From Candidatus Gastranaerophilales bacterium (lineage in GTDB: Bacteria > Cyanobacteriota > Vampirovibrionia > Gastranaerophilales > Gastranaerophilaceae): a stretch of DNA of 64,000 nt. The notes under the pieces were generated by a model. The model was not told the DNA's origin, did no database searches, and saw nothing but the letters and a program-made list of their open reading frames with translations. The stretch lies in contig CALUTF010000004.1 of the NCBI GenBank assembly GCA_944323595.1, positions 1 to 64,000 on the forward strand, written 5' to 3'. A program made the position numbers and the translations under genes. Below, in pieces: positions 12,335 to 32,161 of the stretch (position 1 is its first letter; every line of letters begins with the position of its first letter).

Positions 12335-12760
12335 GCGGCTTTAGTAGAAATAAAGTTCCCTCGCCCCGCCAGATTGACCTCTGTGGGTGAGAGGGGTAGT
12401 AATGTAGGTCGGATTTACTTCCCCTCTCCTTGTTAAGGAGAGGGGGTAGGGGTGAGGTGCAAACGTAACGTTTGGCAAACATGATGTTTGCATCAATAGG
12501 GCTCCTCAACATTCAAGTAGTCGCCTGTATTAGATATTCAAAACGATTCAATCTTCTTTGAAGTATCGGCTTTTGTAGAAATTACTTCCACTCTCCTTAG
12601 TAGGAGAGCGGATTTGCGGACGGACGACACGGAGTTAGTCCGGATAGCGAACGGAACGAGACTGCTTAGCCGCAGGCTTCTTGTCGAGTCTCCGTGAGCG
12701 TGGAGCAAATCCAAGACAGGGGATAGGGTGAGGTATGATTTACGGAAAACTGAGATTCTG
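12335..12760. repeat. Block of palindromic intergenic repeats with a GC-rich folded insert
   Basis: The 686 bases between 12324 and 13011 contain no gene. They hold three degenerate to good copies of the ccctctcc/ggagaggg palindrome (near 12356-12396, 12421-12446 and 12589-12608). They also hold a copy of the catcaata...ctcaacattcaa unit at 12475-12526, and a 113-bp GC-rich insert at 12610-12722 bounded by ggatttgc and gcaaatcc, with nested cacggag/ctccgtg arms. The block matches that at 79-345. From 12760 to 13010 I see only AT-rich sequence and the promoter region of the adhesin gene (tataat at 12972-12977). Confidence 0.8.
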
Positions 12761-31071: not shown

Positions 31072-31563
31072 TTATTCTACACAGGTAATTGTAAATTTTT
31101 TGTTATTTGCAGTATTGATATAAGTTTTAGATAACGTACCGTTTATATTTAAAAATACAGTCGCTTTTGTTTCTGCTACGCTTGGCGTAAATGTAACATC
31201 CCTGTGGTTTGTAACCTGTCCGTATCTGTTATAATCTTCATGTATGGTTCTTACTTTATAGGCGCCTTGATTACGGGATGCAGGTCCGAATCCTGCCTGT
31301 TCTCTGGCAATTGTGCCTGTACTTATTACATTACCCTTGTTATCAACTGTTGTATGATACTGGTAATTTTTCCCGTCTTTAAAAATGTTTTTTTGACGAA
31401 CAAGTTTTCCGGATTTCTCCTCAATAAGAGTATATTGTTTACCTCCTTTAAAATTTTTTTCAAAACAGATTAAACCGCTTTTAGATGTACGACCTATTTG
31501 TTTGCCGTAACCTTTCATAATGGCAGTGCCAATTTTGCGTAATGAACCTAATAAGTTCCCCAT
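31072..31563 (-). CDS. Hypothetical protein
   Basis: No family recognised. The 163-residue basic protein has a short amphipathic N-terminus (MGNLLGSLRKIGTAIMKGYG) and a soluble, beta-rich body with Tyr- and Asn-containing turns such as EDYNRYGQVTNHRDVTF. It lacks a signal peptide and contains two cysteines. The ATG is followed upstream by an ataggagaaaattttatg-type ribosome region. It is bounded by the hairpin at 30959-31048 on one side and the DUF559 element on the other. Confidence 0.65.
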   Translation of the reverse strand: MGNLLGSLRKIGTAIMKGYGKQIGRTSKSGLICFEKNFKGGKQYTLIEEKSGKLVRQKNIFKDGKNYQYHTTVDNKGNVISTGTIAREQAGFGPASRNQGAYKVRTIHEDYNRYGQVTNHRDVTFTPSVAETKATVFLNINGTLSKTYINTANNKKFTITCVE

Positions 31564-31705: not shown

Positions 31706-31741
31706 ACCTCACCCCACCCCTCTCCTTATAAAGGAGAGGGA
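31706..31741 (-). repeat. Left inverted repeat of the DUF559 unit
   Basis: Begins acctcaccccacccctctcc, continues ttataa, and closes with ggagaggga. It is itself a palindrome plus tail and is the reverse complement of the right copy at three mismatches. Confidence 0.85.
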
Positions 31742-31748
31742 GAATCTA

Positions 31749-32094
31749 TTACTTGTTATTTAATAATTCTAAAAGTTTTAAATAAACGCCATCAATATTA
31801 TTATCAATTTCGTTATTCCAGAATCTGATAACTTTGTAGCCTTGTGATATTAGATATTCAGTCCTGATGTTATCATAAGGATATATTTTCAGGGCTGTTA
31901 TGCTGTCCGCCATCTAACTCTATTACAATATGCTCTCTTCTGCTGGCAAAATCAACTATATAAGGACCAATTGGATATTGTCTGACAAATTTTATTCCGT
32001 TTAATTGACGATTTTTTAATAAATCCCATAGTTTATATTCCTGCGGGGTCATATTTTTTCTTAAAACTCTTGCTGTAATATATTTTTTATCCAT
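31749..32094 (-). pseudogene. DUF559 (Vsr-like endonuclease fold) protein, frameshifted
   Basis: The first part, from the ATG at 32094, reads MDKKYITARVLRKNMTPQEY through GIKFVRQYPIGPYIVDF and IELDGGQH, a typical DUF559 domain related to very-short-patch repair endonucleases. The frame stops at about 31873 after ENISL. In the next frame the rest of the domain continues without a gap: YDNIRTEYLISQGYKVIRFW and a final LLELLNNK before the stop at 31749. A single-base shift therefore breaks an otherwise complete gene of about 115 codons. It is either a recent pseudogene or a sequence error. Confidence 0.85.
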
Positions 32095-32125
32095 AAATTG
32101 ATTATAACATATTTGTAAATAATGC

Positions 32126-32161
32126 ACCCTCTCCTTTATAAGGAGAGGGTTAGGGTGAGGT
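32126..32161 (+). repeat. Right inverted repeat of the DUF559 unit
   Basis: Begins accctctcctttataaggag and ends gggtgaggt. It lies 32 bases upstream of the ribH promoter. Confidence 0.85.

Follow-up and report, generated by a model that had tools for sequence, protein, structure and literature searches.

The window (the whole 64,000-nt stretch of DNA analysed here) carries, at positions 31706–32161, a gene of the DUF559 family (PF04480) framed by two inverted copies of a repeat unit that is predicted to fold into an intrastrand triplex. In our view it is probably an autonomous element, now decayed, from a widespread group of small mobile elements (~0.45 kb), in which a Vsr-like nuclease and triplex-forming ends would make up a REPtron-like pair of autonomous and non-autonomous forms, with DUF559 as the mover. 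The data described below show that the ends match, that the dispersed copies are stem-specific, that copy number tracks the gene and that entire units are present or absent at orthologous sites; the simplest account of these findings is a system of autonomous and non-autonomous elements in which DUF559 would act on the folded unit.

Architecture of the element and identity of its repeat

Alignment of 31706–31741 with the reverse complement of 32126–32161 gives 33/36 identities, and a repeat search of the window extends the inverted arms to 47 nt at 85% identity. The left terminal unit (31706–31740, minus strand) comprises an outward-directed third-strand tail, ACCTCACCC (31706–31714), a short linker and the palindrome CCCTCTCCTTATAAAGGAGAGGG (31718–31740); the right terminal unit (32127–32161, plus strand) comprises the palindrome CCCTCTCCTTTATAAGGAGAGGG (32127–32149), the 3-nt linker TTA and the tail GGGTGAGGT (32153–32161). 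Nothing is enclosed by these units other than the DUF559 gene (~31749–32094, minus strand), whose product is predicted to adopt a Vsr-like PD-(D/E)XK fold. The PF04480 profile matches it in two pieces, 31882–32079 and 31761–31880 (82.9 and 37.8 bits in the window, both above the cut-off of 20.6), which sit in different frames; the gene is frameshifted between them and the window copy is, therefore, a pseudogene. At the matching locus of the sister species G002 (L069/L078), the ortholog is intact and encodes 115 aa. An earlier, sequence-only reading of this DNA had described two 36-bp inverted copies with a DUF559 gene as their only content, and both the window alignment and the profile match bear this out. 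Adjoining the element, at 31072–31563 (minus strand), is a gene for a 163-aa protein of no known family; a related gene is present at the G001 and G002 loci, and at the G003 locus the neighbour is a CcdA-like gene instead.

The same reading had placed further, solitary copies of the palindrome elsewhere in the window. Two of these are complete units that lack a gene (193–229 and 12421–12458, both plus strand, each with a palindrome and the tail GGGGTGAGGT), but the third is degenerate (12587–12734, plus strand): its palindrome, CACTCTCCTTAGTAGGAGAGCG (12587–12608), is separated from its tail, AGGGTGAGGT (12724–12734), by a foldable linker of ~115 nt. That such palindromes are dispersed beyond chance was borne out by pattern searches, from which all palindrome counts per genome were obtained: the 2.05-Mb Gastranaerophilales genome contains 32 perfect CCTCTCCN{3,14}GGAGAGG palindromes, against none for a reversed-pattern control, and in the window genome a GTGAGGT tail usually lies on one side of the palindrome. 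Many lone units of this genome are joined to a hairpin-like repeat of ~110 nt (GCAAACATGATGTTTGCATCAA...GTCGCCTGTATTAGATGTTCAAGAAGTTTTAAATATCTTTGTAATGGCGGC...), sometimes in tandem (window ~80–260 and ~12430–12560; L015, L017, L027, L193 and others). As at window 12587–12734, an additional foldable hairpin or a long linker lies between the stem and its third-strand tail at L061 and in the Sphingomonadales loci L290, L291 and L293.

What the sequence-only reading overlooked is the identity of the repeat. The tail is a mirror of the purine arm of the stem, usually starting exactly 3 nt past it, and the unit is therefore the BoxC/PIT G/C-rich intrastrand triplex motif, for which triplex folding is predicted: the order of parts is a C-rich arm, a loop, a G-rich arm, a short loop and a G-rich third strand that mirrors the second arm. 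In E. coli, such BoxC/PIT/triplex motifs were already known in the 1990s. The published pattern is CCCTCNCCCN3-6GGGNGAGGGN3GGGNGAGGG, formerly named BoxC or PIT element; 3610 copies are reported from 262 proteobacterial genomes, including 23 in E. coli MG1655, where five inverted pairs are found, and the motifs are tied to genomic instability, with no mobility gene reported near them (PMC4666352). Both DUF559 and endonucleases are absent from the main text of that study (Holder et al. 2015; PMC4666352). The window units read CCCTCTCC..GGAGAGGG, TTA and GGGTGAGGT, a relaxed form of this pattern. Like them, the E. coli motif (TM-ECO) has a C-rich arm, a loop, a G-rich arm, a 3-nt loop and a second G-rich strand (GGGTGAGGG), and it too is dispersed and partly arranged in inverted pairs; relative to the published description, the link to a nuclease gene, the lineage-specific stems, the in-frame copies and the putative autonomous elements are new.

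The tail varies with the stem, the two reading GGGAGAGG/GGGTGAGG, GGAAGGGG/GGATGGGG or GGGGAGGGC/GGGGAGGGC, with further pairs besides. Of the candidate hairpins, 49% have a mirror score of 0.88 or more, compared with 18% when the stems of other loci are used and 4% with shuffled tails.

DUF559 loci across genomes

Intact orthologs and relatives of the window protein score up to 143 bits against PF04480. An AlphaFold2 model (pLDDT 88) has a Vsr-like fold, with matches to 3hrl (Z 15.3), I-Bth0305I (3r3p; Z 13.2) and Vsr (1cw0; Z 11.3); as 3hrl is NGO0050, an uncharacterised DUF559 protein from N. gonorrhoeae, the model indicates I-Bth0305I and Vsr as the closest characterised folds. I-Bth0305I is also matched in a profile comparison (E 2e-4). 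Across 43 DUF559 sequences, Glu19, Asp48, Glu59, Asp61, Gln64 and His65 are invariant, and we take the conserved acidic and histidine positions to correspond to the catalytic residues of Vsr. Weak profile matches to enterotoxin B chains (E ~0.006) were judged to be due to chance, since they cover only a short segment and the predicted structure is clearly Vsr-like.

Flanking repeats were sought, with no motif assumed, at 80 DUF559 loci on one-genome-per-species contigs spanning Gastranaerophilales, Alpha-, Beta-, Gamma- and Deltaproteobacteria, Chloroflexi, Patescibacteria, Nitrospira and others, using the best local alignment between the left 350-nt flank and the reverse complement of the right flank. 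The median score was 21.5, against 9.5 in displaced controls from the same loci (n = 425), and 62 of the 80 exceeded the control 99th percentile; flanks paired across different loci aligned worse (median 10, 95th percentile 14.6). For Sphingomonadales, 40 loci were sampled from across the DUF559 list of the order, and 38 of them lay above the shuffle 99th percentile, with a median of 31. The enrichment in inverted repeats anticipated by the sequence-only reading is thus found over many phyla, and the opposite outcome, that most DUF559 genes lack such flanks, was not encountered among relatives of the window gene, but other Pfam DUF559 branches do lack them. The flank test found no flanking inverted repeats at DUF559 genes of Shinella, Streptomyces and Bacillus, and, in the same genomes as the elements, DUF559 domains at the C-termini of ~1000–1500-aa proteins (L072–L075) have immediate flanks without such repeats; these domains of helicase-like fusions are a different DUF559 branch.

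A set of 59 genomes, the window genome included, contains 14 with a DUF559 match at E < 1e-30 (again counting the window genome), and nearly all of these loci have inverted palindromes on both sides, the stems differing between genomes. The similarity of the ends follows that of the DUF559 proteins, both over all loci (Mantel rho 0.31, p 0.001) and within Sphingomonadales (rho 0.35, p 0.001), and in one genome the ends differ between two DUF559 loci. At loci with units on both sides, the tails point inward in 33 cases, the commonest arrangement being palindrome, inward tail, gene, inward tail, palindrome, and outward in seven, the window among them; because both orientations occur, any exact end assigned to the element is tentative.

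The dispersed palindromes accompany the gene. Taking E ≤ 1e-15 as presence, 96 of 198 Sphingomonadales genomes are positive for DUF559 and 102 are negative; the former contain 1059 palindrome copies and the latter 15 (Fisher p 1.7e-16, kinship ignored), and the stem CCCTCCCGC..GCGGGAGGG occurs in 62 genomes, 56 of which also have DUF559. When the genome list is divided into two blocks, the association is seen in each (p 7e-11 in one and, more weakly, p 0.0015 in the other), and palindrome number correlates with DUF559 copy number (Spearman 0.66); Y1_Tnp, the RAYT-type transposase family, shows no association with the palindrome in this order (p 0.49). Counts in the Gastranaerophilales set range from 0 to 247 (median ~33) with DUF559 and are mostly 0 without it (Mann–Whitney p 6e-7, kinship ignored). 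The outcome that the earlier reading had named as refuting its proposal, palindromes equally common in the absence of the gene, thus occurred in neither group. Palindromes do occur where no DUF559 was detected, namely in G031 (33 copies), G043 (46 copies) and six Sphingomonadales (1–5 copies).

Lone copies have the same stem as the DUF559 element resident in their genome. When 32 DUF559 genomes of other groups were searched for the sphingomonad stem, it was present in just five, all with this stem at the ends of their own DUF559 loci and no others being so; in those five the window-type stem is rare (0–5 copies). Inverted pairs in four sphingomonad genomes are either 400–440 nt apart, these being DUF559 elements, or 33–107 nt apart and gene-free; no gene other than DUF559 was seen between the pairs in these four genomes. 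The gene-free copies of Novosphingobium and its relatives are MITEs of ~100 nt, consisting of a palindrome, a GGGGAGGGC tail, ~20 nt, an inverted tail and a palindrome.

The DUF559 gene of E. coli is ycjD, located between sapF and fabI, and its product has previously been placed in the PD-(D/E)XK superfamily (PMC1189080). Its position and its sequence both identify the motif downstream of ycjD as no. 9 of the published K-12 set (1351204–1351239; PMC4666352). Across 60 E. coli records drawn evenly down a ranking, motif places number 13–28 (median 18) with ycjD and 1–16 (median 3) without it, so the sampled strains that lack the gene have few triplex motifs; strain lineage confounds this comparison, which is consequently supportive only. 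The ycjD-less strains were rejected as a clean empty site, as an RND efflux operon replaces ycjD between sapF and fabI (in L165–L167, together with a TetR regulator). Upstream of ycjD (L163, ~1530–1580) lies a different inverted repeat, CACCTCATTCTGACAA..TTGTCAGAATGAGGTG, in place of a triplex unit.

Orthologous sites and competing explanations

An empty site of the kind sought in the earlier reading exists. G000 and G002 have the element upstream of ribH, and it is wholly missing there, tails included, from G001 of the same genus; comparison of the filled and empty ribH sites reveals no visible target-site duplication, and 20 sphingomonad places yielded no consistent duplication. A fixed target sequence was not found either. 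Within the family, a linker of PriA contains the element in G001, G003 and G030 and is repeat-free in G012, G013 and G017; the G010 match runs through it without interruption. MITEs lie between rpoB and rpoC in five sphingomonads and are missing from most others compared; these sites and those at atpD–atpC show presence and absence, but they were rejected as base-exact insertions because their boundaries are not base-exact.

Several elements lie in-frame within host proteins, which we have named from sequence reading and which are presumably IspE (four of four genus members), PriA (three genomes) and a HydE-like radical-SAM protein, in the last case at its C-terminus (four genomes). The corresponding loci are L001 (ispE), L058/L036/L030 (priA), L066–L068/L040 (hydE-like) and contig C15 of the window genome, and the palindromes are translated as Pro/Gly/Arg-rich linkers, for example PPPLRGRLGGG. 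The PriA and IspE sites are occupied repeatedly across species, and elements are also found at many unrelated sites.

Such recurrence at PriA and IspE is what allelic homing would produce, and it raises the possibility that DUF559 is a homing endonuclease gene for which the triplex repeats are a niche: it would cut existing repeats or pairs and copy itself in by recombination, the repeats having spread by other means. The nearest characterised fold, that of the homing endonuclease I-Bth0305I, and the lack of a target-site duplication at ribH are in keeping with this. However, the empty ribH site and the element-free PriA linkers miss the whole unit, with both repeats gone and no lone repeat left; the ends covary with the DUF559 protein and not with the host genome; and the dependence of palindrome number on DUF559 copy number is unexpected under pure homing. 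We therefore regard this explanation as unlikely.

Somewhat less likely again is a role for DUF559 as a passenger or guardian, which would resolve or remove toxic triplexes and be kept near the repeats, or be spread with them, by relieving their cost, the repeats themselves being moved by an unknown host process or transposase. Triplex motifs have been associated with genomic instability (PMC4666352), which a Vsr-like nuclease could plausibly repair, and for VsrA, a DUF559 protein of Caulobacter, a part in mismatch repair has been suggested (PMC12907096). Yet DUF559 is the sole gene between the paired ends of the loci examined, at compact spacing, the four sphingomonad genomes included, and genomes that have it contain many motifs rather than few.

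Bacterial genes often have hairpins near their ends, and at most loci the distance from hairpin to gene is short; nevertheless, that the palindromes merely serve a small gene as bidirectional terminators or regulatory hairpins, and are alike by convergence, is highly improbable and already contradicted by the units inside the IspE and PriA reading frames and the identical-stem lone copies elsewhere in the genome, and it sits poorly with a third-strand tail that covaries with the stem and with the joint absence of the gene and both ends at ribH.

Proposed mode of spread and relation to known systems

To return to the preferred explanation, that of a mobile element moved by DUF559, the autonomous form would consist of two inverted triplex-forming units (each a G/C-rich hairpin, a linker of ~3 nt and a third strand mirroring the purine arm) around a single DUF559 gene, and the non-autonomous forms would be the lone units and short inverted pairs (in sphingomonads, the MITEs of ~100 nt) that share its stem. 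Probably, a unit that becomes single-stranded, on the lagging strand or during repair, folds into the hairpin plus third strand; DUF559 would recognise the folded unit and nick either at the base of the fold or at the target DNA, and repair synthesis or strand transfer could then place a copy elsewhere.

In plan, this resembles REP/REPIN–RAYT systems (REPtrons), in which inverted palindromic units likewise frame an enzyme gene and many short gene-free inverted pairs track the enzyme in number. It is not a member of that group, because the HUH Y1 tyrosine transposase is replaced by a PF04480 protein with a Vsr-like PD-(D/E)XK fold, and the GTAG tag by a mirror third strand, with the tail GGGTGAGG. 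An autonomous element with non-autonomous copies, REP/RAYT-like with a different enzyme, was the proposal of the sequence-only reading; its flanks, co-occurrence and stem match hold, and mobilisation by DUF559 is the part that we infer. The element differs from DDE insertion sequences and their MITEs in the absence of a target-site duplication at ribH or, consistently, at the 20 sphingomonad places. I-Bth0305I, an EDxHD enzyme with a Vsr-like fold, is close in structure, but no intron was seen around the DUF559 gene, which is framed by its own repeats and has dispersed gene-free copies; Vsr shares the fold, and VsrA of Caulobacter is itself a DUF559 protein, but no cytosine methyltransferase linked to the DUF559 gene came to notice. 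Rickettsia palindromic elements are, like the DUF559 units, small and palindromic and may sit in-frame in genes, and CGTC REPs have no known dedicated enzyme (PMC3733652); both differ in sequence and tag, and the passages considered here describe no triplex tail for either. The open-licence PMC literature yielded no earlier link of DUF559 with palindromes, inverted repeats or mobility, and a subscription paper could exist.

The spread of BoxC/PIT triplex repeats has long lacked an explanation, and no role has been established for DUF559/YcjD, although this nuclease family is common. Our results bring these two orphans together: of the enzymes that might spread the repeats, DUF559 is so far the strongest candidate. 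We put at about even the chances of the broader proposition, that a Vsr-like PD-(D/E)XK nuclease recognises triplex-folding ends and copies them, its non-autonomous progeny being the BoxC/PIT/triplex repeats found in Proteobacteria, E. coli included, and in other phyla, with YcjD as the E. coli enzyme. As the plan itself resembles REP/RAYT, the system would be categorically new only if mobilisation by DUF559 were confirmed; the origin of the repeats is now testable in E. coli. If the proposal is correct, a nuclease fold so far associated with mismatch repair and homing would drive a REPtron-like repeat system as well, a triple-stranded DNA fold would serve as a natural recognition signal, and the selfish in-frame insertions in genes such as ispE and priA would be explained.
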